A stretch of 64,000 bases of DNA from Tribonema minus (lineage: Eukaryota > Sar > Xanthophyceae > Tribonematales > Tribonemataceae): NCBI GenBank assembly GCA_017506865.1, contig JAFCMP010000017.1:186001-250000 (forward strand), in the 5' to 3' direction. The translations under genes were made by a program, and so were the position numbers. Of the stretch, positions 417-57,988 are shown piece by piece. Each line of letters starts with the position of its first letter. The stretch's first letter is position 1. The notes beneath the pieces are model-generated. The model had not been told where the DNA came from. It saw nothing but the letters and a program-made list of their open reading frames with translations, and searched no databases.

Positions 417-3400
417 CTGCTCCAGCGCCGCCGCCAGCTGCGCCGCGCGGCGCGCCTCGGCGTCCGCGCGCGCCTGCGCCTCCGCCAGCGCCGCCTCGCG
501 CGCGCTCAGCTCGCCGCGCGCCGCCGCCGCCGCCTCTGCGCTCGTCACGAGATCGTGCTGCAGGTCGTCGCGATCAGCGTCCAGCTGGCGCAGCGACGCG
601 CGCAGCGTGCGCGCCTCCGCTTCACGTGCCTGAGCAGTATGGCGATCGCAGGGTGTGGAGAGGGTGACGGGGGTGCGTGTGTGTGGGGTGGGGGGTGTAT
701 AGGGGAGATGGGGGGTGGGGGGGTGAGGGATGGGGTGAGGGGGTGAAGAGGGGTTGTATGTAGGTGTGTGCAGTCACAGTGCTCAACACACCACCGCTGG
801 ACACTAGCATTCATGTCGCTCGGCAGCGCATATGGCGTCTGCGCGCCTGAGCGGTGCGGCGGGCATATGGCCGAGGGGTGTGAGGTATGGTGTGGGGCAT
901 TGATGTGGGGGGGGGGGGGGGGGGGGGTTGACCCGGTGATGTCGGTACTTTATGTAGGCACGTGAGAGCTCAGTGGTTGACGTCAGGGTTAGGATATGGC
1001 GCCCGGTGCGCCCCGCGCCCTGCGCTGAGCCCGCCCGCCTGCCTGCAACGGTGCCGAGGAGAGCCTGCCGAGTTCAGCACCAGTACACACGCCAAACCCT
1101 CTGTACCTCGACGCACCGCACGCCAGCAGCGCTCAGCGGCGCCGCCATGCACCTGTTGCAGTTGAACTTCAACCCATACTCATAAAAGTGGGATCATCTC
1201 AGTCCGCGCCGGCGCGCGCGGAGTCCGCGTTCGCGCACCTCGAGGTCGCGGCGCAGCGACTGCGCCTCCGCCGCCGCCGCGGCGGCGCGCCCCTCGGCGT
1301 CGCGCGCCTGCCGGTGCGCCGCCTCCACGCGCGCCGCCATATCATCGTGGTGGCCCGCAGCAGCGCGCGCCGCGGAGCGCGCCGTCTCGAGCTCCGCCTC
1401 GCGGTCCGTCAGCGCCGCGCGCGCCGCCGCGAGCTGCGGAGGCGCGGTGTGGGGGGGGAGGGGGGGGCAGGGTGAGGGCGGCAGCGTTGCGCTGTTGATC
1501 GAAGTACTTTGAAGGAGGGTGCTTTTACGATGCTTTCGAGAGAGGTGTTGCTCTGTTGCTTGAAGTAGGTGCTTTATTACGATGCTTTGACAGAGATTCC
1601 GGCATGCGTGCTCTGGCAAACAGTGAGGGGGGTGGCGGCGCGGTGTGAGGGCGGCGGCGCATCAGCTTGAAGTGTGGATTGAAGTGTGGATTGAAGTAGG
1701 TGTTTTGACGATGCTTGTGAGGCGCCGGGTTGAGGTTAGGGTTCAGGTTAGCGCGCCGTTGTGTGTGGACTGCAATCGAGGCCATCTCAAGTGTGGAACC
1801 GGACGGCACCAGGGCTGCTGGGGTGAGTTTAGGGTTAGGGTTGGGGGTTAGGGTGTGTTTTTTTTTCATCAGCAGCTGCCCCTTGCAGTCCATGGCTGAA
1901 ACCGAGGCGCTGATGCCCTGTCAACCGTGTGTGCCATATAACCTGCCGCCGCTGATGACGTCAGCTGATGGATTACAGGGAGGCTGTGGGGATTCAGCAC
2001 ATGGTCAGCATGAAATTGGCCAAGTGGAGCACGACAAGGGTTGCAGGCGCATGGGCACACGCAGTGTCACAATGTGGCGCTGCATGGAGCAGCGCCACAC
2101 GCGTGGAGCGTTGACGCGACCCTGTTGCCACGCTAGGCAATGTGACGCGCTGCGCCACAGAATCGCGCGCTGCTATGAGCATCGCATACTCCTTGAGCAC
2201 ATCATCGTCAGCGCCAGGCCAGCGAGTCCAAGCAGAGCCCTCGCAACCTCGCCAGCGGGTGTCGCTCTCTCTCTCTGCGCTTGCGCCCCCCATCGTCACC
2301 TGCTGCTCAGTGCTCAGCGCGGGGGAGCGCTGCCTCAGCTAGACTGAGCATCATTCTCACCTGCTGCTCAGCGCTCGGCGCGGCAGAACGCTGCCTGTCT
2401 GTCAGACTGAGCATCATCATCGCCACATACTGAGCATCATCGTCATCACCTGCTGCTCAGCGCTCAGCGCAGCGGAGCGCTGCCACAGCCAGGACTGAGC
2501 ATCATCACCACAACTGCTGCTCAGCGCTCAGCGCGACGGAGCGCTGCTGTCAGTCTGTCATCGTCATCACCGTCATCGCCTGCTGCTCAGTGCTCAGCGC
2601 GGCGCAGCGCTGCTGTCAGCATCATCATCACCGTCATCACCTGCTGCTCAGTGCTCAGCGTGGCGGAGCGCTGCTGCCAGTCTGTCACTGAGCATCATCA
2701 TCATGGTCACCTTCTGAGCACCATCATCTCATCATCGTCACCTGCTGCTCAGCGCTCAGCGCCGCGGAGCGCTGCCGGTCCGCCTCCGCGCGCGCCGCCG
2801 CCAGCGCCGTCTGCCCCTCCAGCACCTGCGCGCGCAGCACCGCCGCGGAGGCGCGCAGATGCTGCAGCTCGGAGTCCAGGGCGTCGGCGCGCGCGCGCCG
2901 CGCCGCCAGCTCTACCGCCGCCTGCGCCGTCTGGTCCCTGCGTGTGCATGTGGTGTGTGTGGGGGGGAGCGGGGACAGGGAGGAGGGTTGTGTGAGGGGG
3001 GGGGGGGGAAGGGGGGGGGGGGGGGGGGGGGGCAGCAGGCGCGTGTCGGTGTTCGCGCGCCGGCGCAGGCATTCGTACCTACTCGATAGCAGGATCAATT
3101 TGCGCTGTATGCTGCAATGCCCGGCGCAGCCCGCGCCGGGTTCGCGTAGGCACACTGCCGTACGGGGAGTGCGGGGAGGGGGGAGGGGGGTCCCATGAGC
3201 AGTCGCGCGAGCGCGGCAGCCCACATGCGTGCGCGGGCCATATACTTGGGGATATGTATGAGGAGGATGACCAGGGGTAGGCATGTTTGTACCTTACATC
3301 TCAGGGTATGTACGTAGGAGGGTGATCAGGGGTACGTCAACAGGCACATTTCATTGTCTAGGGTATATGCGTACGTGTGGATGACGACCAGGGGTTATAT

Positions 3401-6400
3401 AGGCACATGCACACCAAATGTTAGGACATGTCCCTGGTGGGGGTGACCAGGGGTATGTATCTTGCGGTGTATCGATACCCGACGCCAATGGCGCGCCCCA
3501 CATGCAATCGACGAGCACTTTTTGCAAAAACACTGTACGCATACATGTGGGCGGACAGCGCGTCACATAGACAGCAAGCCAGGAGTGGTCAGGGGTAGGC
3601 ATCTGGCGCAATGACGACCAGGGGTATGTAGGTATACGCACACAAAGTAGTAGGGTATGTATTTGGTGGGGCAACCAGGGGTAGGTGATAGGCAGACCAC
3701 GGGTATGTATCCGTGCATATACCTTGCGCCGCCGGTCCTGCGCTCCTCCTCCAGGGTATATGTGTACGTGTGAGATGATCAGGGGTAGGCAGGTACATAC
3801 ATGCCACATGTTAGGGCATGTATCTGGTGGGGGCGGCTAGGGGTATGTATCGCTATACGTACCTGGCGTCGGCGGTCCTGCGCTCCTCCTCCATGACGCG
3901 GCTCGACAGCGACGACACCTCGGCGCGCAGGCTGCGCACCTCCGCCGCGCTCTCCTCCAGCATCGCCTGCGCGTGCTGCTCCGCCTGGCCGACACGGGCA
4001 TCGCGGCAGGGCACACGGGCCGCATATAATCATTTTAATGGTGACGTCTGACATCTGTGTCGTATGTATGACTCGCGCCAACTTTGACGAATCGAGCAAA
4101 TGAGAGGCAGCGGCATGCTGGTGCAGAGATTGACCAGCTTCATGGGGGTGATGGCAGTGCGGACACTCGAGAATCACGAGAGGATCAGGCTAGAGCTCAA
4201 CGATGCCCTGATGTGATCTGACGGCAATCACGGAAGCTGCATAGGGTGACGGTGGCATACAAGTGCCTATCGCGTGGCTCCTGCTTTCATGCGAGCTCGC
4301 CACAATTTCACTCAGATTCAGCAGTTCCAAAAAGCTTGTGCGCCTCTGACATGGCAATTCTCGATCACTCATGGCTGTTCACGTTAGCTCATGGCCGCAC
4401 TTGTCCGCTGACGCGATGCAATGTACATTACAACGGCAGCTACGTAACATGCAGACATCAGCGGCGGCTGCACCAAGGGTTAGGGTTAGGTGGAAGCGCT
4501 TCCACGCAGTACACCAAGATGCATCTCATTGGGAAGAACGGCCAGCCTGCCCCCTGTGCCGATATGTCTTACTTGAGCCCTAACCCTAACCCTAAGGCGC
4601 GTCACAACGCACCTGAGCGCGCAGCGTGGCCTCCAGGACCCCCGCGTGCGCAGAGCGCTGAGCATCCGCCACCTCCTAACCCTAACCCTAACCCTAACCT
4701 TAGGGCGCATCACAACGCACCTGAGCGCGCAGCGTGGCCTCCAGGGCCCCGGCATGAGCGGTGCGCTGAGCATCCGCCACCTCCCCCTCCAGCCCCCTCT
4801 TCTGCCCCGTCAGCGCGCGCAGGTCCGCGTCGCGCGACGCCAGGGCATCTGCCAGTCGCGCGCGCTCCACGGCAAGCGACTGCAGCAGCAATGGACGGGA
4901 TGTTGGGTAGGGTCGGTGTTTAGTTAGGGATAGGACTAAGTTAGGGTCAGGGCTTGACATCCCCAGGGAGTCCGCTAGTCGCGCGTGCACCACAGCAAGC
5001 GCCTGCGATGGGGGCGGACGGGGTCTCAGTTAGGGTTAGGGCTAAGAGGTTGGGGCTAACTTAGGGGTAGGCTAACAGAGGGTGAGGGCTACGTGCCCGC
5101 GGCGTCTGCCAGTGGTGCGCGCTCCACAGCAAGCGCCTGCGACGGCGATAGACGGGCTCTCAGTGAGGGCTAGGGTTGAGTTGCATTGGGGCTACTTTGG
5201 GATTAGGGCCCAGCTTCCCACCCGCATGCGTTCCGCGGCAAACGCCTGCAAAGGCGACGGACGGACTCCCACTTAGCATCAGACATGAGTGAGGGTTGGG
5301 GCTAAGCACCCCAGGCGCCCGCCGGTCGTGGGCGCTCACAGGCGCCCGCCTGCGACAGCGACAACTGGTTCAGGGTTCAGGTTAGGTCAGGGCTGCGATC
5401 AAGTGCCAGAGGCGCGCTGTCCAACTGAGCGATGCAACACGTGCTCTCCATCCCTTAAGATGGCACCTGCACAGTGCGGCAGCATCGCGCCCCCTGATGG
5501 CACCAACAGGCGCCGCCACGCAGCGCGGCGGCATCGCGTCTGCTAAAGGCACACATATCATAGTAATACTTCTATAGATATATACCAATAAACGGACGCC
5601 GCCGCGAGCATCATCGCTGAGCATCACCACTCACGTCGAGGGCGTCGGCCTTGGCGGCGACGTCGCGCTCCAGCTGCGTGGCGACGGCGCGCGCAGCGAA
5701 CAGTTCCTGGGCCTGCGCCCTGGCGCGTTCCTCGGCCTGCGCCAGCTCGGCCTCCAGCTGTAGTGCACGCAAGCGGCAGCGGAACGAGTCGTGAGTATCG
5801 AGTCAGCAAAACAGGGACTGACAATGGCAGAGGGTCGTCGTGCTCTGCGAGGCGTGAGGAGGTAGGCGCGACGCTGCGGCCGCTACCTTTAACCTAACCC
5901 TAACCCTACCCTGACCTAACTCAAAGAGGCGCGTCCGCCCGCGTGCTGTGACCAAATCCTCGGATGCGATTCCTGCATCCATTTGACCCAACAAGATGCT
6001 ACCTTGCGATACCCATACCCAAGGTCGCACTGACCCGTGCGCAGCGGACCCTAACCCTAACCCTAACACAATCATACCCATCCCTGAAAGTGCCCCGGCC
6101 CGGGCGCAGTGGAACGGGCTGCGGGCAGCTCCGCCGCACCGCAGTGGCACGCCCATGAAGCAGACCGGCACACCGGTGAAGCAGACATCGGCAAACGTTT
6201 CCCAATTTTACTGACTACCGCGCCACGTGATTTCCTCCGACGTGTGTGCATCCCACCGGTGACACACATACTCACGACCGCCGACTTCCTTGCGTTCACC
6301 TGCCGCGCGCGCGTGCCCGCGCCCCCCTCCCCCCCCCCCCCCCCTGCACGCGCCGCCGCCGTGAAGCACTTCGCTCTGTGCAATAGCCGGTCGGCAGCGC

Positions 6401-9400
6401 CACTTTTCAACACCGCGGCCTGTCAATCACCTGCCGCGCGCGCGCGCCCGCGGCGCCCTCCGCCGCCCCCGCCGCCGCCGCGCCGCGCGCAGCGCTCAGC
6501 GCCTCCTCCAGCCGCGCCACCTCCGCGGCGCGGGCCGCCGCCGCGCGCTCCAGCGCCGCGCGCTGCTGCTCGAGCGCGGCGCAGCGTGCCTCCGCGACGT
6601 CGGCGCGCGCAGCCGCGGCGCGCGCGGCGTTGAGCGCTGACTCTCGCGCCGCCGCCGCATCTGGGGGGGGGGAGGGGGGGGTGCGCGGAGCGCGTGAGGG
6701 CGGCAGTGCTCAGTGGGTGATGTCGAGCAGCGCTGTGAAGTAGTGAGGCAGGCGCGCTTCGAGGGCGGATGACTGGGCTGCCGCGCTTTCCACCTCTGGC
6801 AGCTGGCGTGTGTGGCGGCCTGGGGAGCGAGAGGTGTCGTGCGCGCAGCGTGTGAGTGAGGGTGGCAGTGCTCTGTGTGGAAGTTGGGGCTGAGCAGTGG
6901 TGTACTGGGGAGGGGGGGGGCAAGAGCGCATGTGCAGGGGCTGCCGCGTCGCGTGCCGCAGAAGCCCTCGAACCCTACGGTACTACACGGTAGTGTTGAG
7001 TTATTGCTGAACACTGCTGCAGCATCTACATATGCTGTGGTGGTCAGTGACTTGAACCGTTTGCATGATCTACCAGATACATTTCAAGGAGAAAAAAGTC
7101 AACGACATGGGCATACCCGATGACTCTTACGCTGTTTGGGGTTCAAATCTGAAACGTTCGTTCCTGTGCAATTATCCATCAAATCGTTGTGTGCTTGACG
7201 GCAGAAGGTGACTGACTCGAGACTGTTGCTGTGCAACATGTGCCATATCCCCCCACACCCGCCACAGCGTCAAGACTGAAGCAGCGCTCTATTTGACAAA
7301 CTGTGCGCCACATGATCGCTCACCTGACATCGCGGCAGCCGCCATGGACTCCCTGGCGGCTCTGTCATCCTGCTGCTGTCGACGCTCCTGCTGCGAGAGG
7401 CAAGGACAGCGTATGCTCACATGAGGCCGATGAACATTCATAGGTATTGCAGACAAGACACCTTTCACGCAGGCGTCACCAGACAGGATACGACCATTGG
7501 GGCAGCAGGTCGTGCGGTAGGCGCTGCATCGTCATGACCCCCGCCATCACCGCCCATGCCACAGACTCCCGCAACGTGCCCACCCAACACAAACCGCAAT
7601 CGACGCTGCGCGCAGAGAGCACACAACGTGCCACGTTCACGCGCCCGCCGCTCACACCGCCGGCGCTGCCACATCACACAGAGCGCTGCCGCATCAACTC
7701 ACTCCCTCGCCGCCACCACCATTGTACCTACATACCTGTTGGGGGGCGGCGCGGCCGTCTGCAGCGGCGGCGTGAGCGCGCGTCAGCTGCGCGACGGCGC
7801 TCGCGCGCTCTGCGTCCGCCGCCTCTGCCGCCGCGGCGCTGCTGCGTGCAGCGCGTTTCAGTGCGTCCGCCTCCCGTCCAGCGTCGGCCTGCGTGCGCGC
7901 GCAGGAAGTAGGGTTGGGTTAGGGCTAGGCACACGCGGGGGGGCATGGTGCGGGGGGGCGGGGGGGGGAGGGGGGCTGCGGAGCGCTGCTGCGAAGCGGC
8001 AGGGACAGCTACAGCAAGTGGGGTTTAGGCTATGGCTAGGCATGTGTGGGGACGTAGTGCGGGGGAGGGGGGGGAGGGGCTGGAAGGGGGGGCTGCGGAT
8101 GCGGAGCGCTGCTGCGGAGCGGCATGGTATAGCTTGCTGATGAGCATTGCCATCATCAACGCCTCGGTGAGCGGTTTCCGTATGCGATGAGTCAGCGTTG
8201 CACGCCGTGAAGCAGGTCACTGCGCTGGCGGAGCGACACGCGTCACAGTTGAAGCACCTCAAACTTCAACATCAGGGCGCCCCACGTACAGCTCATCAGG
8301 ACATGGAGCTGGGAATTCAGAGATTGAAAGGCTTCGAGTTTCGCCAGGTCACGCCATGCAAGACTTACACCATACACCGGCTGCGCCTGCAAACTACTCA
8401 CGCAATTTACTCACCAGCTGCGCCCGCAGGCCGCGCTGCGCGCCCTCCAGCTCCCTCAGCGACTGCACGGCAGCGCACAGCAGGCACGTGTCAGCGCTCA
8501 AGCATCAGCTTCAAGTTCAACTGCATGTGCCATCAGTCTAGCGCGATTGACGCTCAGTATTAGCGCGTACAGCGACGCCGCGCTGCCTATAGTGCGGGGG
8601 CCACATCCTGTTGACATTGGTGCAGCCGTGTCCATGGCACACGCTGACATGCATCGTTGATGCAATGCAGCATGTACACACCCCACAGGGGTGTGTAGTG
8701 TAAACAACGCTCTTCAGTGTTCACTAAAACACCTACTGAGAGGTTCATCGCCAGCGTATTTTTGGGCGGCTGCTAGTATCACAGCAGAGAACCACACCAT
8801 GTCAGCGCTGCTTTGATTGCATGTCACCTACGTAGAACCTTGATAGCATCACTTGTATTGTACACAACTACAAACAATCACAGGGTGCAGACAATGCGGA
8901 ATTGAAAGAGCCACAAGCAACTCCGGCAGACCTGACGCGCCATTGAATGATGTTCTTGGTATCTTGCCCCATACAAATGAGCGCATGTGGCACGTCACTG
9001 CTTTATTAAATTGCACTCACAATACTTTTCAAAAGGAATCAGCGCGCACCGCACCTTGCGCAGGCGTTCGCACTCCTCGTCCGCCTGCTCGACGCGATGG
9101 CTGAGCGCCTCGGTCCGCGCATCACGCGCCCCCACTGCCTCGCGCAGTCGCACCCTGGAAAAGGCGGCACGGCGGGGCGACGTTTAGGTGGCAGTTGCGC
9201 TCATTTGGCAGTTACATTAATGTAAGCTTCAAAGCATAGCGCCCTGCCAGCACCTCACGCAGTCACACACTGGAGAAGGCGGCACGGCAGTGCGACGCGC
9301 AGGTGGCAGTTACGCGGGTATTTGGCACTTACATTAATGTAACCTTAAAAGCATAGCGCGAGTACGGGGCGAATGGCGAGGCAAGTCTTGACGGGCGAGC

Positions 9401-12400
9401 AATGCGCAGGCCACGCTTATGCTCTCAGCGCACAGTTGGCCGCAGTCCGCGGCCAGCTGCCATGTGTGCGTTCGACTGATACTCAAGTGGCGGCGTGGAA
9501 AGGGGCTGCAGGTGTTACGAGGTGTGCTCGATCTGCACGACGCTCAGATGGGGATCATGTGCACGTGGCAGCGAGAAAGGGGGCTGACAACATGCTGAAG
9601 TTCAGTCTTTGAAGTTCAGTAACTTCCAGCTTAGCATGAGGCATCATCATTGTGCAAGGACGGAAGGCGCCTCATGAGCGGAGCGCGGCACCATTGACCC
9701 TTAACCCCAACCCTGACCCTACTTGACCGAGACCCCATCCTATCACAGCCCTCATTGCGTACCCTGGTCCTCAAATTCATCCCAACCCCACGCACCCCCA
9801 TACCTCATCCCTAACCTGATTCCTACGTTACATTAGTTCTACAGTGACCCCTATCCCGATGCCAGCCCTAGGCTGGGCCACCCTAGCCCTAGCCCTAACG
9901 CCGACCCCCCTGTACTGCTCGCTTTTGCCTGGGCCGCTGCACTTTTGTCAGCTCGCCGATTGGGGTCCACCACCAACTCCCCGTCGCATGCCCTCATGCA
10001 CCCCCCCATATCCCCATCCCCGACTCTCCTGCTCACACCAACCCCTAAGTAGTCCCAGCCCTGCTCTCAAACCCTTGCCCTGAGTCCCGTGCTGCACATC
10101 TTCGCCTGAGCCGCTGCACCTCCGCCATTACTTCACGGGCAGGCCGTGAGCGGAGCGCCGCACCACCCCTTACCCAGACCCCAACCCTGCGCAATGTGAT
10201 GCTTTCGACAGCAACGCTTCTGCGCAGCACAGCGCATCCTCCCCTCAGCCGCTGCACCTCCGCCAGCAGTTCTCCGCGGGACGCCCCCAGCAACTCCTCG
10301 CCACATGGCCTCACGTACCCCCCCCACCTCATCCCCGACAGTCCTGATTACGCTAGCCCTAGTCCCAGCCCTCCTCTCAAACCCTAATTCTGCGCGTCCT
10401 CACCTGAGCCGCTGCGCCTCCGCCACCAGCTCTCCGCCAAACGCCCCCAGCAACTCCCCACAAACATGCCCTCTTGCCCCCCCCCTACCTCATCCTCTTC
10501 TTGCGCTAACCCTAAATCAAGCCCGATTACCAAACCCTAGCCCTAATTATCGTGCTGCGCGTCCTCACCTGAGCCGCTGCACTTCCGCCAGCAGCTCCCC
10601 GCTGGACGCCCCCAGCAGCTCCGCGCCAGACGCGCCTGTGTCGCCGTCGTCATCGCCTCCTGAGCGCTGTGCACGCGGCAGTGAAGCGTCCGTCGACGAG
10701 GCCACGCTGCGCTCGTCGTCGGAGGCCGGCGACGCGCTGCCGCCGCTGCTGCTGCTGCTGGCGCCGCTGCGCGGTGGTTGAGCGCTGCTGCAGGAGAGCA
10801 GAGTAACGATTCATCGAACTGCGGCTGAGGGGCGGTGTGTCACAAGGCATTGAGTGCGGCGGGTACCGGTGGCAGGTCCTGGAGGGGGGCTTAAGAGGGC
10901 ATCTGCACGACGCATCGTTGCAGGTGCGTGCTGGCATCGAAAATGGCGGCAACAACCAGCTTCATCTATAAGCAGGTTCATCTTCGAACTGTGCAGGTGT
11001 ATGGTGCGTAGGTATGCTCCGTGCGGCAGTTGAGCGCGCGCATCGCCGCGGTGCTGCAGCGCGTGCGCCTGCAAGCCGCGGTGCCAGGGTCGGGACAGGA
11101 GGCCATTGCCCCCCTCCGTGCCCGTGCCGTTTCCAACGCTCTGCCGAGGGAAACACAATGGGAGGGAGGCTGTGATGCGCCCACACAACCCCAGCATTGG
11201 CGCTTAAGCACAACTCTGCTGGTCATATGCGCGCGCCCGGCCATGCGCGCTCACTACACAACAGCACCGCCTTCGCTGGCTCACAACACATTGCAGACAC
11301 CGCTCGCTCACCGCGCAGCGCCGCTGCCGCCGCCGCCGCTGCCGCTGCCGCCACCGCCGCCGCCGCCGCCGCCACCGCCGCCACTGCCCTTGTACAGCTG
11401 CGCCGCAAGGGCGGAGCGCGCAGCCTCCAGCGCGCGGTTTGCTGCCTCAAGTGCCTGCACGCGGTCCCTGAGCCGCGCGTGCTCGTAGCGCGCCAGCTCC
11501 GCGGCGCGCGCCTCTGCCTGTAGTTGCGTCAGCTGCAGCATCGGCGGCGCGTGCGCGGACAGGTTGTGTGCGTGAGGTCATCAGGTGTATGGCACCACGC
11601 GCACGGGGGGGGGGGGGGGGGGGGGGAGGGGGGGGTGAAGCACACGCTCGAGTACACGCTTCTGATCCTTGAGAATACACGGCGTCAGCATAATATGTAC
11701 ATTTGCATGTTACAAGCAGTGCGTATGTTTTGTGCAAGTTACACGCAATGCGTATGTTTTTTGTGTGTGAGAGTGCGCGTGTGTCACCGCACATGTAAAG
11801 CGTGTTACCAATTGCTGAGCTGTGCACGCTTGCAGCATCCTGGTCCGCCCAATATCGTGAAGCGCGCGCACGTGGCGCGCAGTCACCTGCGCCACATGCG
11901 CGGATCTGCTACTTGAAGTGTTGTGAAGGCTGAATGAAACGTAAAGGTGAAATTGCGCTTCCCATCGATTACCCAAATGAAATGCACTGAGAACAACCGA
12001 CATAGTTGGCATGAAAGCGCGTTGCTCCTGTCCCTGTCAGTGCCAGCAGGCGAGATGGTGACAGCCTGTATAGCTCTGGGGGCAGTGGCGGTGGCCGTGC
12101 CGGTTTGAAATAGTCAAAAGTTCAATGTGACTCACAATCCAACAGCCAGCTCCGAAGCCGCTCCAAAAGCGGCGCTATCCGCAATACTTGGTTGCTCTGC
12201 CAATCCACATTGACGCGCGTGACCCGCCCGCCTGCGCATGCTACCATCCGCCAAGCACTACCAGCAAGCCTGATGCGTCCAGAAAGCCCGACAGCAAGCG
12301 AAGGCTGCGCCGTGCACCGGTGCCACGCTGCACCCAGTCTGAGCACCAACCTTCGCCGGGGACGCAACACGCACGCGCTGCCAGCAGCACATCAGGTCCA

Positions 12401-42900: not shown

Positions 42901-45176
42901 GCACTGCCGAACGATACTAACTTGCCGCTGAGCGTTGCAGCAGTCCGCGTGTCACAGCAGCGCTCAGCGCGACCGTCATTGCACACCGCGGCACATCACA
43001 TCACACTGACACATCACGACACACGGACAGCCGCTGCCGCCTACAGAGAGCGCGGGGCAGCGCAAGCGCTGCGGCGCCCGCACCAGCTCGGCAGCACTTA
43101 TAATATCACAGGTGACTGTGATGTATGACACGGCAGTCGCGGAAATCTGACCTCCGTGACTGACCAGCAATGCGCCTACTGGGCATGTCTGCGTGCGCAG
43201 TACTGTCACGAGTGTACCTGTTATGCGGATCGTTAACTCGTGGCTGATGGCTGCAGCAGCGGCGACCACGATGGAAGGCACTTGCGGCTCACCACACCTT
43301 GTCACCTAGCGCTCTACGATCTCGTGGTTCATTTCCATGCGGATTGTTGACGCGCAGGCAAGCACTGCTGCGGCGCGCGCGTGCAGCACTGCGGCAGAGC
43401 TCAGCAACGTCAGCGCTCACCGTGAGGAAGACGAGGCCGCCCATGAGGCCGAGCAGCGACACTGAGGACAGCATCATGTAGCCGAGCAGGCAGCGCATGC
43501 AGCGGAACTTGTAGAGCAGCACGATGAGCGTCGTCGCGACCGCGAGCACCGCCACTATCACCAGCGAGTTGACGAGGCTCTTGCCGAGCAGCGCGGAGCT
43601 GGTGTTGCCGCTGTTGTCGCAAACGCGCGGGCGAGCAAGCGAGCGCGCTGTCAGCTCCAGTCGGCAGAGTAATACTGTTTACGCGGCAGGTGATGTGCGT
43701 GGACTTCAAGGTGTCGCTGCCCGCGCGATGGGGCGGCGGTGTCGGCACATGAGCACCGCCGCTGCCGGTGGTACAGGGGACGGGGAGTCAGGAGCGTAGC
43801 AACCACTGCTTGGCAAGGTGCCACGTTCTCCAAATGAGCAGCTCCACCGAGGCAACAGCAGCAGCAGCACGTGCCAATGTGAAAAGCTTAGACAAAGTCA
43901 GCGCTGCAGAGCCTCTTTGAGTCAAAAAGAGTACGGCACGGAAGCTTCCCACGTGGTCCCCCACCGTAGTACTAGCTCCGCTCAAGGGTGCTTAACTTCA
44001 GCGATCGGACGAGAGCTGGTGCTGTCACCATGATATGGCCGTACCCATTTGGTCAAAATCAGTTGACCACGTAGCACTTGACAACAGCATGGTATAATCG
44101 GCATCAGAGCACACACATACAACACATACAATGCCTGGGCCTCTGTGCTTAGTGCTGGCAGTTCAAAGAATGGACTTGTCCCAGACACACCATTGACACC
44201 TGCCTCTGTGCAGAGGTCGCATGCAAGGAGACATTTGTGAGTAATGATTGGTAGAGTCCATCAATGGGGTATGGTTTGCACGTGAAACCACAAGATGAAG
44301 CCAACAGCAGACCTGCTGCCAAACGCGCCGACAGGGCCATCATGAGCGTAATTGCGGCCAATGTGACAGGTTACAGTGCGCCTGCTCAGCAACTTCTTTG
44401 CGAAGCGCTTGGAAGCATAACGCCAAGTGTCAAATGGCCCATGGCTGGCTGGGCGCGGTCTTCCACTACATAAAGGTAGGGGAACCGTGAAGTGTCTGCA
44501 GGCAGCTGCTGTCCATGAAGGTGTGGCTGAGCTGTGCTGCTGCACGACTTCACGACACCGATACACGTGCAGATGGTGGCCCTCAGGAGGCTAGCAGGCT
44601 CGTGAATCCGAAGACAAAATGTCAAGATACAATGTTTCGTCATCACAGCAACTGACGACTCACGTGGTCTGATCCATAGAGTACACCTCGTAAGCGCCCA
44701 TCCCCGATGAGCCCCCCCCTCCGGCATCAATGTAGGCAGTGCACAGCGCTGCCAGAACCATGGTCAGGCAAACAGGCTTGGCCACTGCCATGAAGGAATG
44801 TGCGGCGTATAGTACGTCGTCTACACTCAGCTGCTGCGCACGGCCAAGCCATGTTCAGCGGAGGACAGGTGCACGAGCAGCAGCAGCAAGCCTGATTAGC
44901 AGAAGTGTCCCAATGACATGCTTGTAGGTGATCGACCTGTAACGAATGAGAAACATGTTGCCTTGTCGCTGCATGTCAGGCATCGTCATCTCAAAGCTCT
45001 CCCTCAACTCATGTTTCTTGCAACTTCAATAGCTAGGCATGACCTACCCCAACAGGCTCCTGTGACTGCGGCTGCTCCGCGGTGGCATCGCCATTGTGCA
45101 TGGTTGCAATTGGACGGCCCAGCGGATCAAACTGCGAAGACATCAGCAGCGCCTGCTCCTCTGCTGCTGCTGCCAT
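36945..45176 (-). CDS. PSEN: Presenilin, catalytic subunit of gamma-secretase
   Basis: Eight exons, 45048-45176, 44664-44833, 43421-43610, 42290-42421, 41251-41397, 40026-40208, 38179-38236 and 36945-37141, join in phase to 401 residues. Presenilin is the aspartyl protease of gamma-secretase, cutting membrane proteins within the bilayer. TM1 follows LSVDDVLYAAHSFMAVAKP; TM2 has LVIVAVLAVATTLIVLLYK. The TM6 active site is LAMYDLCAVL (Asp237), the TM7 site LGLGDFVFYSVLV (Asp322), and PALP is at 367-370. The loop holding the autocleavage region begins YNEPMPGLLYEAE and is short. All three signature motifs are intact. Exon 2's acceptor could be 3 bases later (44830); exon 6's donor CGA|GTGATT is weak. 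Introns downstream of exon 5 and upstream of exon 8 carry duplicated exon edges. The gene faces the HAD gene. Confidence 0.93.
37185..37545 (-). repeat. Array of copies of the acceptor edge of presenilin exon 8
   Basis: The genuine edge at 37110-37160 (GTGAAGCCTGCGCCGCAGA on plus) recurs with changes near 37225, 37338, 37415 and 37508, each with CGGCGCACAGGCACGA-like coding sequence and the CCTGCGCCGCAG acceptor or a variant. Some copies also share CATGTACAAGCACAG. Spacing is about 75-115 bp. None is joined to the downstream exon body. Confidence 0.85.
39860..39893 (+). repeat. TTAGGG-type telomeric tract in a presenilin intron
   Basis: GGGTAGGGTTAGGGTCAGGG, the G-rich strand on plus, lies inside the intron between exons 6 and 7 of the minus-strand gene. 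Confidence 0.75.
40845..41000 (-). repeat. Two copies of the donor edge of presenilin exon 5
   Basis: The genuine edge at 41245-41300 (CACCTGCATAAGGTTGACAA on plus) recurs near 40850 and 40949 as CACCTGCATGAGGTTGACGA and AACCTGCATGAGGTTGACCA, each followed by a GCCTTGAGGGGG(C/G)-type coding edge. Translated on the minus strand the copies read LVNLMQ-like, matching the end of exon 5. A third, weaker echo is near 40780. Confidence 0.85.
41030..41117. repeat. Dispersed inverted copy, partner at 43244-43325
   Basis: GTGACAAGGTGTGGTTGGCC at 41044 and surrounding sequence to CGGTGGTCGCCGCTGCTGC is the reverse complement of 43244-43325, both in presenilin introns 2.1 kb apart. The ~85-bp match has several differences. 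Confidence 0.7.
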
Positions 45177-45728: not shown

Positions 45729-48700
45729 ATGTGCGTCAACGGAACCACCAGCAGCATCGCTGTCCTGTTTGACTTCGACGGGACCGTGGGTGACACGGAG
45801 ACTCCCGCCATGGAGGTTGCTTTCTGGGAGGCCGCGCCTTACCTGCCCAACATCGGTGAGCTTCGTCGTGTGTTCCGAGACCCGTCGAGATGCATGGAAG
45901 ACGCTAGAGACACATCATCGGCACACATGGCCAGCTCAATCACTTCTGTGCTCAATTGACTACTGTTCTCTGCATTGCGCTGCAATCAAGGACCAGCTGA
46001 TGTGCTGAAGGGCGGCATGTGTTTTTGTCGCCGTCATTCGCATCATTTGCCTCAACTGTGATTGGCGACTCTTGCTGTGCTGCACATGCAGCTCCTTCCG
46101 ACCTCATCACCCAGCTGCCTGAGTACATCCGCAACAACGCTGGCAAGGCCTTTGAGTTCATGATGGAGGCCACGGATGAGGACCGCAAGAAGGCCGGTCT
46201 CGACACCGCTGAGGAAATGCGTCAGGTGCGAGAGCAGCCCCACTCCAATCATATCAAACATTTTGAGTGTGCATGTTAGGTAGGTTAATATATTTCAGCA
46301 GCATTTTATGTCCCGTATCTCGCCATAGCCCCTTCGGTCGCCCCTGAGTTTTCAGTAAGCAATTTGTAGACCAGGTGTGCACCTGTCGGATTCCTTGGGG
46401 TGGACCACGAGGTTCAGGCATGTTGGAGTGCTGCGAATCTGTGATCTGACCACATCAGTTGCTGACATCTGTGTGCGCATGCTCACACCATGCTGCTAAA
46501 CCTCTCAAACTTCAAACGGCACCTGTGCCATTGTCAAGTAGAAGGGGCAGCCGCGGCGAATGATGTGCCACCTTGAGGGCCATCTTTTACATGACCTTTA
46601 GCACTCTTCAACTCACATGATGACTTGAGATTTCACCGAACGAGTGAGATTTCACACCAGCAAGGGTCAATGGCAGTGACTTGTTTTCACACCAGCAAGG
46701 GTCAATGGCAGCGACGCAGCAGCTTTCTTCAGCTGTGCCCAACATCATCATCACCCCCAGCACCTGTCGCCCGTGCCCTCAAATTTTGTTTTGCAAGTGC
46801 ACATCACATGCATCAACAAGATGCGGCTGATGCCCTTACCACATATGCTGACCTCTCAAATGCGCAACAAACAATTGCCGCCCATGCAGGCAAAGCGCGA
46901 GGACCCTGCGGCCGTGGAGGTGATTGACGGGTACCGCAAGAAGTTTGGCCTGCCGCCTCTGCGCGAATGCAAGTACGCGACGCTGCTGGAGCAGCAGAAG
47001 CTGGAGACCGTGGAGGCCCTCTCCAAGGTGGGTGGAGTGAGCGGTACTGGTCTTTCGGCATTGCCTAAGAATGTCCAGATACGCTTCAGGAGGGCAGAAT
47101 CTCTGGTGGTGGGTTGCTGTGATTGTTGTACTCGGTCGGCACTTCAGTTTTTTTGTGGTAGGCTTGCAGTGAAGGGTATTGGTGCTCATTGACGATTTCA
47201 CTGACTGACAATTGCACAGCAGCATCCGCCTTCTCGCAAATCATGGTCTCCGGGAACGTGCCCGGGGACATTCTGTAACAGCAAAAACGGAAGGAAGGAG
47301 CTTGCCCCAGCCAGCACGGTCACCACTGACCTTGCACAGCAATTTTCCTCAGGCATATTCTTATCAACTCACCTCGCATCACCATATCCATGTCTTGGCT
47401 ACATTGACAGGTGGCACAGCCCTGCCCCGGCATCCCGGAGACCCTGGATGAGCTGGTCAAGATGGGCATCCCGTTCTGCATCTCCACCACCAGCCCCAAG
47501 CCCCGCGTGCCCGTGAGCATCTCGTCCTGCGGCCTTGACCACCACTTCCCCGCTGACAAGGTGAGGTTCGGCTGTAGGTGACGTGCCTCACTGCCAACTT
47601 CAAATGTGTATTGATGGTTTTGTCCTTGGTTACAGTTGGGGAGCGCTATCTTCCTGGTCTGGGGGTTGTTGTGTCGGTGATGCTGGTGGGAAAGTTTTTG
47701 AAGGTGCAAGGGCGGGCCTTCAGCGAGCTGTGTTCATAGACCTGTCGTGTCGCCTCGACGTGTGTCGATGCATTGCAAAGTAACGGTGCAAGTCGATCAG
47801 CACTGTTGCTGTACGGCCTGCGGGACGCAGGAGTGGCATCACATGCACTGTGGCGCTCTGGAAGTGACTCACATCTTGTCCACTGTACCTCACACTTTGT
47901 TGCATTATGTTAATTTATGTACAGGGCGGTAGGTTCAGTCATCCTTACAACACACAGAATGCTCATAGTGCAGTCCTATTTCTTGTCACATCACTTCAGG
48001 TGCACAGCGGAGAGAATGCTCATAGTGCGGTCCTATTTCTTGTCACATCACTTCAGGTGCACAGCGGAGAGAGTGACTTCACGCCCCCCAAGTTCAAGCC
48101 TGCCCCGGATGTGTACCTGAAGGCGGCCAAGTCTGAGGGCAAGCCCCCTCACGATTGCGTGGCGGTGGAGGACAGCGGCTCTGGCGTTGGCTCCGCGGCG
48201 AATGCGGGGGTTGGGATGATAGTGGGGTACGTGGGCGCCAGCCACATCCGCGAGGACAAGAAGGTGAGGGGTGGCATTCGCTTGTGAATACACAGCTGTG
48301 ATGTGGTACAAGCACATGCGCCATGCCGCAGTATGGTGGTGAACATGCCCTTTCGTTCTTGCATATAGAATTATCTGCACATAGTTGCTGATAGTAGCCT
48401 TTTTTGAGCCGGGTAATTGAGAATTGTACTGGCCTAATTACCCACACACGTCAAACGCTGTTCCCCTTGCCCACTTCAGCTGTAGCTTGCATGATTCTAT
48501 GTAACATTGAGAGGACTCAGGACTTGATGCAACTGGTTTCTGAATGCAAGTTGTTCCGGTAGCAATAGCTTCAATGATTGAGCTGCAGCTAGCGCAGGTA
48601 CGCGGCAGCGTGCCTCTCAGCGGATTTTACGCAAGCATCACCTTCATCTACGCACTGCTTGATAAGCACATCATCTGACATGCATCTTCACCTCTCGCGT

Positions 48701-52422: not shown

Positions 52423-55400
52423 ATGAGTGACGGGATAGATGACTATCTTGACGCACAGCTAGAGGGTGTCAAGTCTGGCCCTGGACCTCAGAAAGTGCAG
52501 AGCCCGGCGCGGTCAGACAGGTACATGGACGTTTGTGGTGCATTTGGTTGATTAGCTCCGTCCGCTAGGCGTGCTGCTGCTTGTCCAGGCTGATCTTGTT
52601 TGTAGCCGTCGTTCGCTCTGTGAATAGCACGATCACACACATCTGATTGCGGGCAACGCACCTGACACGCATCAGCCAGCCGCTTTCAATGGCATAGATG
52701 GCTGCTGGCACGTGACAACTGTTCTCACAGGGCCATGCATCCCCTGCTGCCGTGTCTCCCATCGGCGTTTTTGAACCTGCCATTCGCTGATGCTGTTCCA
52801 TGGCTCAGTCACTCCCCATTTCGCATCGCACCGCCGCATCACCCCACCACAGGAGGTCGCCAGCCAGAGAACCGTCCGGCAAAGACGCGCAGCCGCCCCG
52901 GAAAGAAAGGGACGACAGGGACGGACGGCGCGACCGCGATCGCACCGCCGACCGCGACCGGGATCGTGGCAAGGACCGAGAGCGCGACGCTGATGCAGAT
53001 CGCGACCGGTACCGCAAACGGAGTCGTGGAGACGCAGACGGTGAGCCCCGTGACAGGGAGCGCGATCGCGACGGCGACAGGCGCAGGGACAGGGGCGACC
53101 GCGGCGACGGCGACAGGGACCGCGACGGCGGCAGGCGGCGGCGCTCCGAGCGCGGCCGCGACGACTCGGAGCCGCGCAACGGTCACGCGAAGGACGAGCG
53201 CCGCGCCTCTACGGACCGCGGCGCCGCCTCCAAGGACGACGCCAGGCGCGACGCGGATAAGGCGGCAGCGGCGGCGGAGCCAATGGACGTAGAAAAACCC
53301 GCCGCGGCAGCCGTGGAGGGGCGCGGGCGCGACGGCGACGCCGCCGGCGGCGGCGGCGCGGCGAACGGCGGCCGCGACGACAGGCGGCGCCGGCGCGAGC
53401 GCTCGCGGTCGCCGAGCGCGGGCGTCCCGCTGCTGGGGCGGCAGGCATCCGACGCCACGGACGCTGGTGAGGCCAAGGGCGAGGAGCTGCTGGAGCGCCC
53501 GTCGGCGCGCCGCGGCGGCAGCAAGGAGCGCAGCGCGAGCCGCGGCGGCGGCGGCGCCGGCGCCGGCGCGCGGCGCGAGCGCAGCGGCAGCAGGGGCAAG
53601 GACGAGCGGCGGCGGCGCGCGGACAGCCGCGAGCGCAGGGGCGACGACCGGCGGCGCCGCGGCGGCGGCGGCGGCGAGGACGACAGGCGCCGCAGCCGCG
53701 AGCGGCGGGAGCGGTCGCGCAGCGCGGGGGCGGGGCGGCGGCGGTCGCGATCGCGGGACCGCAGGCGGCGGCGCAGCAAGAGCAAGAGCGACAGCCGCTC
53801 GCGCAGCAGGTGAGTGTGGCGCGATTCGCAGAGCCGGGGTCGCGGGTGCCGGCGCAGTGCGGGTTGTGGTGGTGATGTTCCGCTGCACTTGCCGGCTGTT
53901 ACGCGCCTGGCGCCTAGTGGGAGGAGACGGGTGTGGTTCAACGTACGCGTGGGAGTCGCTGTTACTGGGCCATGAGATGAGGTGCCCAATCGCATGCGAG
54001 GTGGTCATCGCTGTGTTACCTTCACCACGCTGCGAGGAAGCGCAAGAGACTGAGAATCTTTTACATACAATCAGCAGACCAAGAGTCTCATGCCCGAGTA
54101 CAAAAGGCAGCATAGGCCGCAGTGCGCATGAGTGTGCACCACAGTGCTATTGCCTTGTTCCTTCTATTCAATGTGCGCAAACTCTGAAGTGCCACGGTTG
54201 TTTGGTGTTCAGCGCCACAGGCCTCCAGCGAGTGACCTCTTGGCTGCTGTTCACAGCACCAGCAGCAAGCAGGTATCCTTATCACTTGATGACTGGCAGT
54301 TACCCGATGAGTGGCAGTTATGCCCCCCTTATCTGAGTGCTGCCCTGCATGATCGCTGCCCTCGCGCCCGCTCACCAGCGGAGGAGCCCGAGACCGCCGT
54401 GCAATCTACGCGACAGTTACACCGCTAACCGTCTTTGAGCACTGTCGCATGTGTGGTGCACGTGCGGGCTGTAGTCCATCGCCGAGCGGCACTTGCTCTG
54501 AATGCAGCTACCCGATGAGTGGCGGTTACGCACCCTTATCTGAGCACTGCCGTGCATGTTCGCCGCCCCTGCGCGCAGGCCGCGCCCGCTCACCGCGGAG
54601 GAGCGCGAGGCCGCGGTGCAATCTAAGCAGCAGTAACGCCGCTGTGTGGCAGTTACACTATGAGCGCCGTCTTGTAAGTGGTGCACGCGCAAGCTGTAGA
54701 CATGCCGAGCGGCACTGCACCTCTTGTAGCGGCAGTTACGCCCCATTCACCTGAGCACTGCTGCACGCGCGCGCGCAGGCCGCGCCCGCTCACGGCAGAG
54801 GAGCGCGAGGCGGCGGTGCGGCAGGCCGCGATCGACGAGCTCACGCGCGACCAGCGCACCGTCTTTGTGAACCAGATCACCGCCAAGGTGCGCGAGAAGG
54901 ACCTGAAGCGCTTCTTCGAGAAGGCCACCGGCGCGCCCGTCAAGAATGTCATCATGCTGCGCGACAAGATGACCAACCGCCACCGCGGCTTCGCGTACGT
55001 GGAGATGCAGCAGCTGGACTCGGTGAGTTGAAGTTGAGGTTGAAGTGTGGTACCGGTGTGGTGCTCCCCTGCGGAGATGATCATCGTCATCAGTATGGCT
55101 ACAGTAGCAGCACAACGTACGCAAGGCGCTGGCCCCGCACGGGTAGACTCGCTCCTCTGCAGCGTGCAAAACATCATGATATAGGGCGGCCCTGCAAATT
55201 GCGTGAAGGCCACTTCAAATATCATGCATGATGTAGCAGGAACTTCATGCAGCTGTCCTGCGGCTAGACAGACTTACATCTCGGTCGTCAGGGTTTCGCC
55301 CCTGGTGCGTGTGCGTTGCTGCGAATCGCCGCGGAATGGATTAGCATAGCATTGTTTTGCCCTCTACGCGAAGCTAGTGCGCAGTACATATAGCTAGTAC

Positions 55401-57988
55401 CGCTGTTGAGGGGTGCACCTGTAATGTTGGCTGCTCGCTAGTCCTTGTCCACACCGTATGATGCCCAGGATGTCTGCAGTGCCAGCGCCTCTTGCAGTGA
55501 AACGGAGACTGCCTGCTGCTACACTCCAACCGCAGTTGCACCACTGCAGATGCCGCAACGCTCCTGCGGCGGCCGCCGCAGCCGCTGCGCAGGTGCCGCA
55601 ACGCTGCTGCAGCCGCCGCCGCCGCCGCAGCAGCAGCGCCTCATCTCACCCGCTGCGCCGCGCCGCCGCTGCCGCCGCCGCCGCAGGTGCCCATGGCGCT
55701 CCAGTACAACAACGCCGTGCCCGACTTCCAGCGCTTCCCCATCATGGTCAAGGCGAGCGAGGCCGAGAAGAACTACCTCGCCAAGGAGGAGAAGGCCGTA
55801 ACCGCTGCCGCCAACTCGGCGCTCGCGACCGCCGCCGCTGCCGCCGCGGCCGCCGCCATGCCCACGGGCGTGCGCATCAGCAACATACACCCCGTCGTCG
55901 GCGAGGACGACCTCATGACCATGGTGTCGGCCGTGGGGCAGGTGCGGTCGCTCACGATGGACAGGGCGGCGGTGGCGGCGGGCGCGGGCGCGGCGGACGT
56001 GGTGTTCGCGGACCCTGCAAGCGTCGACGCATGCATGGAGGTGGGTGGGGCCGTAACTTTAAGTGTTGAAAACAGTGTAATGGCTGTAAACCTGCCGGAG
56101 TTGGTTGCCTGGATGCTGGCCGCAGAGGCGCAGCAAGCAGCAGCGCTGCAACTGTCGCTGGGGCGAGCAATGTATTGCATCTGAGCTGCTGACGCAATGC
56201 ATGGACTGAGCTCTCAGTCGCGCATCAGAGGAATGCGTCACGCTTTCTGTCGCTCTCGAGCAGAAGACATGTCCATCACACTTCAGTGTTCATGAGCTGA
56301 TTCTGTCAGATCTGCAGCAGCAGCAGCAGCAGCCTGCAGGCATCGTTTCTTATTCGTGGCCGCACTGGGCTCACGCCACTGCTGCCGCGCCGCGCGCCCC
56401 GCAGAAACTCAACGGCCTGGACATCGGCGGCAGGGCGCTGCAGGTGGCGCGCGCGCCCGACTCGCAGCAGCAGGCGCAGCAGCAGCAGCTCCTGGCGCAG
56501 CAGGCGGCGGCCGCCGCCGCCGCCGCCGTCATGGCCGGCAACGCCAGCGGCAACTGGCGCCTCGACGACGACACGGGCTCCGCGGGCGTCGCCATGAACA
56601 GCAACAGCAGGGTCGCGCTCATGGCGAAGCTCGCGCAGGGCAAGGGCCTGCCGGCGCCGGAGATGATGGGCATGGGGGGCATGGGGGGTATGGGTATGGG
56701 AATGGGCATGGGGGGTATGGGTATGGGTATGCCGACGACGGGCCTGGACCCCGCGGTGGCGGCGGCGCAGGCGCAGGCGCTCGCGCTCGCGCAGATGCAG
56801 CAGCTGCTGCCAGGCGCGCAGCAGGCGGGGGTGCAGCAGCAACCCGCGATGGCGCCGGGCGTGCCTCCGATCGGCGGGACGCGCAGGTGCGTGTTGGTGT
56901 TGCGTGAGTGCGCAGCATCCGGTCTGCCAGGCAGCACGTGCGGCCGGTTGTAGGTGTGTCATGGCTGTATGTACACGCAGCGCGCTTGCTTGTTTGTTGA
57001 GGCATATGGCGCTGCCACCAATGTGACTAGCCACGTGGGGCCGGCAGATTGACGGTGTTCGCGCACAATCTGTGGAGGCAGGACCAAATAACTCGGTGTG
57101 CCTCAGCTGTCACGCTGCGATCTCGTGTCTATGAGTCATGAGTCACTCCTGAAGCATATGATCATACTTCAAGTATATAGTTGAAGTAGTGATGTGCTTA
57201 GGTATCATCAGGTGCATGAACCTTCTACTGCCTTCTACTGAACCTCATTGTTGCAAGCCCTGCAACAGTCTGTGCGCCCCATGGACACTGTTAAAGCCGC
57301 CAGTTTTATACTTGTAGTTGCATAGTGCACCTTTCCTTGGATCAGCACACTCAACATGGTGGTGTCGTGATGTGCCATAAGCTTCATAGCAGCGCGTCAA
57401 GGCTCCTCTGGTTCTCGCTGCAGCCAGAGGTTCAGGCCCAGGATAGAGTCAATATATAACTGGCACTGAGACAACTAGCCGGCCAGTCAGTCATCCACGC
57501 ATGCAAGCCTGCCTCTGATTTGCACCATCTTCTGTGCTATATGCACCATGCTTCATGTATACTCATGCTGTTCTGGCTGTGCAATGCCGCACCGCATGCG
57601 TCTGTAACCTTTGCGGTATGCGTGCCAAAACGTGACCTCATGCCCCCTCCCCCCCCCCCCTCTCCCATCCAGCTTCTGCATCCTCATCAAGAACATGTAC
57701 AACGCCGCGGAGGAGACGGAGGATGGCTGGGAGCTCGACATCAAGGAGGACACGGAGGCCGAGTGCAGCAAGTACGGCCCCGTGCTGCACTCGTACGTCG
57801 ATGCCGCCAGCCCCGGCGGCTGCGTCTTCATCATGTTCCGCCACGCGAGCGCCGCCGCCGCGGCCGCTGCCGCGCTGCACGGGCGCTGGTTCGCGCAGCG
57901 CATGGTCACGATAGACTACGTGCCGCCAAACACGTATGTGCAGCGCTTCCCAGAGACGGGCTCCGCAATCGCCTCGTGCAGCATGTAG
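52423..57988 (+). CDS. RBM39: RBM39/CAPER-like SR-related splicing factor
   Basis: Six exons, 52423-52520, 52853-53809, 54779-55022, 55687-56040, 56405-56886 and 57673-57988, join in phase to 816 residues. RBM39 is a U2AF-related splicing factor and coactivator. Exon 2 is a long Arg/Asp/Ser-rich domain with RERSRSPSAG and SRSRDRRRRR. RRM1 follows: RTVFVNQI (RNP2) and HRGFAYVEM (RNP1), running into SVPMALQYNNAVPDF and IMVKASEAEKN. RRM2 is VRISNIHPVVGEDDLMTMVS with KLNGLDIGGRALQVA. A Met/Gly-rich linker (GGMGMGM repeats) precedes the C-terminal U2AF-homology motif: CILIKNMYNAAEE, and GRWFAQRMVTIDYVPPNTY. The order RS, RRM1, RRM2, UHM is that of RBM39/Rsd1. The RS and Ala-rich parts are longer than usual. 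Exons 3 and 4 have duplicated 5' edges upstream. Confidence 0.91.
54350..54690 (+). repeat. Two copies of the 5' edge of RBM39 exon 3
   Basis: The genuine edge at 54770-54830 (GCAGGCCGCGCCCGCTCACG) recurs at about 54573 as GCAGGCCGCGCCCGCTCACC and at about 54362 as CGCGCCCGCTCACCAG, each with GGAGGAGC(G/C)CGAGGCCG-like coding sequence. Period is roughly 200 bp. The 54573 copy still has an intact acceptor and about 45 bases of matching exon; the frame then breaks. Confidence 0.88.

Follow-up and report, generated by a model that had tools for sequence, protein, structure and literature searches.

Introns of Tribonema minus (Xanthophyceae) were found to contain diverged, direct copies of the edges of their own flanking exons. 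The copies had been noticed in a 64,000-nt stretch of contig JAFCMP010000017.1 (assembly GCA_017506865.1, positions 186,001 to 250,000 of the forward strand), hereafter called the window. Analysis of a larger sample confirmed that exon-edge copying is real and extends beyond the window, with a patchy distribution. Comparison of the spacers suggests that most copies are probably tandem duplications spanning an exon-intron junction. The sample comprised 314 kb (GC content 58.6%) of a 158-Mb genome assembled in 554 contigs and was made up of the window, 20 arbitrarily placed 10-kb pieces and one 50-kb stretch; 250 kb of it lay outside the window.

Exon-edge copies in the sample

Each predicted intron of 60–2000 bp was aligned with the 60 coding bases at its borders, the last 60 of the upstream exon in the search for donor copies and the first 60 of the downstream exon in that for acceptor copies, and alignments with a score of at least 36 were accepted. 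Direct copies in the own intron were detected at 33 of 137 donors and 26 of 137 acceptors (33/149 and 26/149 when piece L012, described below, is counted). Copies were present in 45 of the 137 introns, 14 of which had them at both edges. Shuffled exon-intron pairings reached the same score in 0.01–0.02% of cases (60 controls per edge), inverted edge copies at this score numbered 0 of 298, and exon segments taken 100–160 nt from the edge matched their own intron in 1/73 and 0/73 cases. The comparison with shuffled pairings, put forward as a check when the copies were first noticed, gave an excess of own-intron matches in the 314-kb sample.

Outside the window, at least one copy was found in 32 of 109 introns. 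Affected junctions (51 of 238) were spread over 10 of the 21 pieces, and 25 of the 51 were located in two pieces, L011 and L019. The original prediction had called the pattern genome-wide; copies do recur outside the window, but the support consists of a 250-kb sample with patchy matches. Local repeats in the sample were direct in 231 cases and inverted in one (232 of 962 BLAST rows, kept after removal of simple sequence and weak rows), and self-BLAST arrays touched 70–77 of 294 junctions under loose complexity filters and 38 under the strictest.

Genes were modelled ab initio by a small self-trained hidden Markov gene finder, with 195 exons in the final training round. The gene finder recovered the hand-assembled exons of the PLRG1 and HAD genes, except for the last PLRG1 exon and minor differences in HAD; since these exons were the training seeds, their recovery is no independent test. 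Pfam domains span predicted junctions in several genes, and adjacent genes were sometimes fused. For piece L012, the gene model was junk, interrupted by stops, and yielded no edge copies. It was left out of the 137-junction counts, the ten-filter array counts and the 40-nt segment scan, and its junctions were kept in the denominators of the 149-junction, local-repeat, 55:12 array, geometry-estimate and patchiness (238) figures.

Structure of the duplicated units

The better-preserved copies hold some 25–65 coding bases, the remainder being intron. From one to six copies per edge were found, as had been claimed, with a single copy at 25 of 59 edges; donors and acceptors were both affected. The best copy lay 100–199 bp from the edge in 36 of 59 cases, with a maximum of 461 bp. 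Among all 115 copies, 52 distances fell at 100–199 bp, with a smaller bulge of 17 at 320–399 bp, and the remainders 0, 1 and 2 after division by 3 occurred 36, 35 and 44 times, so that multiples of 3 were not favoured. Examination by eye brought out neither a breakpoint motif nor microhomology.

In a gap-tolerant alignment with up to 100 controls for each copy, the spacers of 37 of 55 copies were homologous in register, and most copies therefore look like junction-spanning tandem duplications. The claim that such units were duplicated in tandem was supported for these copies and not for the rest, in which the spacer homology is not recognisable although the exon block is young. An earlier reading of the copies as short non-tandem insertions, derived from strict extension of the matches, was withdrawn after the gap-tolerant alignment, and target-site duplication around an inserted element was dropped as the spacers share no family.

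Divergence of the copies and survival of splice sites

Divergence was measured in 49 BLAST pairs, several from one array, in which the intron part alone was significant. Between exon and copy, it was 0.069, 0.052 and 0.164 at codon positions 1, 2 and 3, respectively, and 0.177 in the intron part. Position 3 and the intron seem to change on both sides and positions 1 and 2 mainly on the side of the copy. Between copies (34 families), the values for the three positions were 0.164, 0.156 and 0.189; this near-evenness indicates that the copies carry little coding constraint, and the two sets of values together that the exon is constrained. Strong selection on the copies, considered earlier, was withdrawn after this copy-to-copy test. 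Within the exon blocks of 50 copies, 16 of 17 indels were not multiples of 3.

Most changes were private to one copy. Two copies agreed against the exon at 78 of 1206 third positions (6.5%) and at 46 of 2449 first and second positions (1.9%). The excess at position 3 points to silent changes in the exon after duplication, and the level at positions 1 and 2, above the 0.33% expected by chance, indicates that some copies derive from other copies.

The donor GT was kept in 41 of 56 copies and the acceptor AG in 37 of 49, compared with 0.82 and 0.78 for exon dinucleotides; GT and AG survive at about the rate of the neighbouring exon dinucleotides. Selection against decoy GT sites, which a rough count of 35/58 had suggested, was not upheld after realignment (41/56).

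Arrays at junctions and the limit near 60 nt

Arrays of local direct repeats touched a junction in 55 cases; 12 were purely intronic, 25 intergenic and 2 within exons, and 10 had other exon overlap, some of these looking by eye like misplaced junctions. The junction share, 55/67, was 0.82 and stayed at 0.79–0.83 under ten filter settings. Forward simulations of uniform neutral duplication, in which constraint acted on exons and not on copies, were run at rates set by hand and not fitted. The simulated share was 0.32–0.46 and 0.34–0.45 in ten sets of 24 loci at two rates, 0.50 (12 to 12 arrays) and 0.38 (22 to 36 arrays) in two small runs, 0.30 in another, and 0.33–0.38 with alternative filters. 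It rose to 0.49 at most when intron indels were made faster, exon copies were made to decay more slowly and exon length was limited. An estimate from geometry and detection gave 7–9 expected junction arrays against the 55 seen. The excess had the same direction in every setting tried, and its size, about five- to sevenfold in odds, depends on the model.

Exon segments of 40 nt were copied in their own intron in 56 of 246 cases (22.8%) at the edge, 23/226 at 20 nt and 8/214 at 40 nt from it, and farther in the copies nearly vanished (1/204 at 60 nt, 0/183 at 80 nt, 0/155 at 100 nt and 1/129 at 120 nt). The limit near 60 nt was sharp on both the donor and the acceptor side. Intron segments of the same length were copied at a flat level of 6.3–9.4%. 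The simulated values for exon segments 0–120 nt from the edge, in 20-nt steps, were 4.7, 3.8, 2.9, 2.4, 1.9, 1.3 and 0.6%, with 4.3–4.6% for intron segments. Intron homology past the splice site had a median of 9 nt in 26 real copies of at least 90% identity, against 57 nt in the simulation. The edge excess and the cut-off near 60 nt need more than a uniform neutral model.

Proposed mechanism and alternative explanations

The explanation that we hold to be fairly probable is junction-spanning tandem duplication followed by drift of the copy. Short stretches, often of 100–200 bp, would be duplicated next to themselves, in the same orientation. Where the duplicated stretch includes an exon-intron junction, the outer, original splice site would stay in use, the protein would be unchanged and the second copy would be entirely intronic. 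Being noncoding, the exon copy would then drift, whereas selection would preserve the true exon; what remains would be an exon edge that can still be recognised, in many cases together with its GT or AG, amid further-decayed spacers. Recurrence would produce one to six decoys per array and probably lengthen the intron. Use of the outer site and growth of introns by duplication are what we infer from this arrangement.

Several observations weigh against this explanation. Under stricter scoring, the spacers of only 27 of 56 copies were homologous. In 18 of the 55 copies, the spacers were unrelated though the exon block differed by only 7.1% at positions 1 and 2 and 13.5% at position 3; these blocks are about as little diverged as those of the other copies, and plain tandem duplication of such an age should still show spacer homology. 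Changes in the copy at positions 1 and 2 amounted to 6.1%, below half of the intron divergence (8.9%), and gaps per 100 numbered 0.27 in exon blocks and 3.76 in introns, a difference partly due to alignment-end bias. Silent changes made up 94 of 160 single changes, whereas about 42% is our estimate for a wholly neutral copy; the excess leaves room for slight constraint or uneven mutation. The uniform neutral simulations miss the junction share, the short intron homology and the exon limit. Repeat coverage per base was 0.19–0.23 at exon edges and 0.13–0.20 in introns, so that the excess concerns the number of arrays reaching a junction and the best-copy counts, not the bases covered; moreover, arrays are clusters and large ones touch junctions more easily, which weakens a strong reading of the excess. 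The matches are patchy, the gene models are ab initio, and the simulation rates were set by hand. The preference for junctions over intron interiors and the stop of exon copying near 60 nt are not explained by junction-spanning duplication and drift as they stand. Our preferred reading of the junction excess is persistence, the exon serving as an invariant master and exon-derived DNA decaying more slowly than the surrounding intron; the contrast in gaps just given (0.27 against 3.76 per 100), with its partial alignment bias, belongs to this reading as well.

Uniform neutral tandem duplication alone, in which units arise anywhere in noncoding DNA and those spanning junctions are tolerated and more visible through their conserved exon half, accounts for the orientation, the spacer register, the little coding constraint and the near-neutral loss of splice sites, and it agrees with base coverage by repeats being about as high in introns as at edges. 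It is nevertheless rather unlikely, as its simulated junction share of 0.30–0.50 falls short of the observed 0.82 and its equal copy frequencies at edge and intron (4.7% and 4.3–4.6%) differ from the 22.8% and 6.3–9.4% observed. Junctions might, in addition to the mechanism proposed above, be mutational hot spots, perhaps owing to RNA-DNA hybrids or to the placement of nucleosomes; the resulting units, at either end of an exon, would include little of the exon and more of the intron. The sharp exon limit at donors and acceptors over a flat intron level, the excess of junction arrays and the crowding of distances at 100–199 bp (52) and 320–399 bp (17), which is compatible with a nucleosome repeat, speak for this addition; it remains tentative, given that inspection by eye revealed no breakpoint motif or microhomology and that selection against long, strong decoys could instead set the 60-nt limit. 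Another possible but doubtful addition is that gene conversion or unequal exchange with the exon as master copy refreshes the exon blocks while the spacers decay. It would accommodate the 18 copies with a young block and unrelated spacers, the ending of the blocks few nucleotides past the splice site (the median of 9 nt above), the private nature of most changes, and the copy-to-copy divergence of 0.155 in blocks against 0.317 in spacers and 0.409 in a random baseline, a comparison in which the blocks, not the spacers, were chosen by similarity. Such refreshing cannot be general, position 3 being nearly as diverged as the intron in the 49 pairs; in addition, the nearest copies were not clearly the youngest (21 better and 12 worse, of 34), and the shared changes at positions 1 and 2 (0.019 against 0.0033) show that some copies came from copies.

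That the copies are kept as splicing regulators or alternative exons is improbable. GT or AG is retained in about three quarters of them and silent changes exceed the neutral expectation, but divergence between copies is nearly even across codon positions, indels break the frame, distances show no bias to multiples of 3, and donor copies of high identity, inspected by eye, begin inside the exon with no evident partner acceptor. Least probable of all, and hardly to be expected, is an origin from introners or some other mobile element that inserts close to splice sites. Aquatic lineages are reported to be disproportionately rich in introners (PMC9860276), but the copies consist of local exon sequence. 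A 3-kb PLRG1 stretch matched one place in the 158-Mb genome, in a search that passes over words of very high frequency. For a 2-kb query covering the array of the coiled-coil gene, the matches at 31 other places all came from exon parts (query 205–481 and 1731–1930), and no match elsewhere in the genome ran through the array region. Among 32 spacers, three pairs matched at E 0.01, one between neighbouring copies within an L019 array (77% over 111 bp), one through a 14-mer and one through G/C runs. The spacer comparison and the PLRG1 and coiled-coil queries thus revealed no dispersed family common to many introns. Returning to junction-spanning duplication, we also advance, as a speculative extension, that junctions are the seat of recurrent tandem duplication of nucleosome length and that exon edges are invariant masters reseeding their own introns, with length and decoys coming from exon ends and not from mobile elements.

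Intron length, decoys and gene prediction

Introns with copies had a median length of 736 bp (n = 45) and those without copies 540 bp (n = 92; p = 2.4e-4). The lengths are compatible with the intron growth originally proposed, but long introns also offer more room for copies. The further suggestion that the copies supply alternative splice sites has so far found no support: GT and AG survive much as exon dinucleotides do, the frame is lost and the distances have no modulo-3 bias. The sequences give no sign that the decoys are used, and occasional use would be compatible with them. The copies are partial exons, and they do not have the complete exon, both splice sites and the kept frame of alternative or mutually exclusive exons.

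Three gene models, with domains assigned by Pfam, seem to have taken decoys as in-frame exons, as judged by eye in the translations: a FERM-domain gene (L022), ATG9 (L019) and a myosin (L011). Near-identical in-frame repeats resembling exon edges were seen in predicted proteins at L022 1–3606, at L019 5300–9300 and in L011. Annotators should be warned that the decoys appear to mislead gene prediction.

Exon-edge copies in the window

The original prediction named about sixteen affected edges. The alignment test found 13, of which the coiled-coil ("CEP135-like") gene has six, PLRG1 four, the presenilin gene one and the RBM39-like gene two (one of them doubtful), and self-BLAST found four more, giving 16–17. 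The window copies are 76–97% identical and carry private changes, which makes an assembly artefact less likely for them; the HAD unit described below is nearly identical.

In the coiled-coil gene (minus strand), the alignment test and self-BLAST showed that donor 2741/2742 (2300–2776) of intron 1434–2741 has six copies, at 2300–2334, 2361–2399, 2450–2484, 2514–2556, 2580–2623 and 2641–2693, with 82–97% identity. Donor 3862/3863 (3723–3893) has a copy at 3723–3753 (90%, distance 140 bp) and donor 4720/4721 (4578–4784) one at 4613–4672 (90%, 108 bp), in a unit containing telomere-like CCCTAA runs. Acceptor 4879/4880 (4840–5156) is copied at 4963–5001 and 5095–5135, and donor 6430/6431 (6296–6486) at 6300–6359 (86%, 131 bp). 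Also on the minus strand, acceptor 9154/9155 (9138–9359) has a copy at 9253–9359 (84%, 115 bp), which was found by self-BLAST only and missed by the pipeline, and donor 10568/10569 (9929–10628) has copies at 9929–9983, 10106–10165, 10244–10303 and 10404–10457 (76–88%). Telomere-like CCCTAA/TTAGGG runs were observed within introns at 4480–4784, 5880–6070 and 9880–10540 of the window and also in L011, sometimes inside duplicated units.

The PLRG1 gene (plus strand) has single copies of acceptor 24266/24267 (24073–24307) at 24073–24124 (92%, 182 bp) and of donor 24395/24396 (24358–24639) at 24567–24639 (81%, 209 bp). Donor 25315/25316 (25300–25580) is copied at 25518–25580 (75%, 218 bp; self-BLAST only, missed by the pipeline) and acceptor 26152/26153 (25754–26188) at 25793–25864, 25924–25969 and 26039–26084. 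Donor 27202/27203 (27162–27382) has a copy at 27334–27382 (94%, 172 bp), and inspection by eye adds a shorter, decayed one near 27242.

In the presenilin gene (minus strand), acceptor 37141/37142 (37101–37695) has copies at 37193–37233, 37380–37418, 37473–37514 and 37663–37695. Self-BLAST showed copies at 40848–40910 and 40939–40995 (83–86%) of a donor placed by eye near 41248 (40848–41303), the exon of which lies outside the gene model. The near-identical 57-bp unit noted earlier in the HAD gene (plus strand) was seen at 47956–48072 (98%); it is a tandem copy at predicted acceptor 48056/48057 (47956–48075), found by self-BLAST at 97–98% and missed by the pipeline, and comprises 19 codons, stop-free by eye, so that either of the two acceptors may be the one in use. 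In the RBM39-like gene (plus strand), acceptor 54778/54779 (54296–54819) is copied at 54363–54402 and 54579–54619 (85–93%), and acceptor 55581/55582 (55546–55686), with a 43-bp period in GCAGCC-rich simple sequence (distance 43 bp), is a doubtful member.

Other features of the window and the sample

Pfam searches of the window identified PRP38, an adenosine-deaminase-domain gene, presenilin, HAD, and RRM with the RBM39 linker, as well as WD40 repeats in the gene called PLRG1, a name given by reading. No Pfam family was detected in the first 160 residues of the coiled-coil protein, the part tested. A 5S rRNA gene lies at 43928–44046 on the minus strand (Rfam, 104.9 bits), between exons 43421–43654 and 44687–44701 of the presenilin model on the same strand, the latter small exon being doubtful. 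The presenilin region also contains an inverted repeat of about 110 bp (41012–41121 and 43236–43338; 79% identity, 2.2 kb apart), by eye the sole inverted pair in the window self-BLAST outside GC-rich simple sequence, which may be a small mobile element. At 30294–31413, two related coding-like stretches (CPVDKRRLLMAWDLQRFCGF and CPVDMRRWVMTFDLQRFCGF) stand head to head on opposite strands, perhaps an inverted duplication of a gene fragment. The product of 61744–63974 (plus strand) we take, from reading its translation, to be SecA-like, in apparently nuclear DNA.

The words AACTTCAA/TTGAAGTT (131 occurrences) and GCAGCGCTCA (34) are strongly repeated in the noncoding DNA of the sample. AACTTCAA/TTGAAGTT was seen near some copies, and the motif is common in noncoding DNA generally. 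Elsewhere in the sample, a light-harvesting preprotein matches antenna proteins in PDB, and the light-harvesting preproteins carry what we assume to be an AFAP-like presequence; together these probably reflect a red-derived secondary plastid, and a green alga, the first impression, was rejected. The GC content of the sample (58.6%) differs from the 64.6% reported for Phaeocystis globosa (PMC11347835), and a protein selected as a guide to the lineage had no significant match in PDB (best E 0.092).

Relation to known systems and implications

Minisatellite-like tandem repeats form direct, decaying arrays of few units. The arrays described here are direct and decaying too; unlike minisatellites, most of the intronic ones extend to a splice junction and have coding sequence as their seed. 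In the RdRp gene of potato, an intron arose when a tandem duplication crossed an intron-exon boundary (Ma, Lan and Niu 2016, PMC4974935). As in Tribonema, the duplication spans the boundary and carries the acceptor, the polypyrimidine tract and the first exon bases; in potato, however, the event yielded a new intron and added exon sequence in one gene, whereas the Tribonema introns appear lengthened with the protein seemingly unchanged, donors are affected too, and about a fifth of the sampled edges are involved. Intron gain by tandem duplication of AGGT-bearing exon segments, as reviewed in PMC3443670, likewise places duplicated splice signals and exon pieces in an intron; in contrast to that model, the unit here is part exon and part intron, and the copies lie inside an existing intron. 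Introners, for which a nucleosome-linker bias is reported (PMC9860276), resemble the present case in large-scale intron change by repeated DNA and differ from it in that the copies here are local, each of its gene's own exon edge, with no dispersed family found.

The view that no such pattern had been described goes too far as regards kind: a single boundary-crossing tandem duplication is in print (PMC4974935), but no genome-wide account of exon-edge duplication into introns was found among the matches listed, which are mostly open papers and give weak evidence of absence. The phenomenon is apparently known in kind and new in its scale and its focus on junctions.

Any mechanism will have to account for two measurable facts, the excess at junctions and the 60-nt limit on the exon side. 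If the proposed explanation is true, and holds with RNA-based gene models, duplication at exon edges would offer introns a possible way of growing without transposons. It would also lay true-looking splice sites beside the real ones, and Tribonema would then offer a natural test bed for the choice between nearly identical splice sites and for the origin of alternative splicing.

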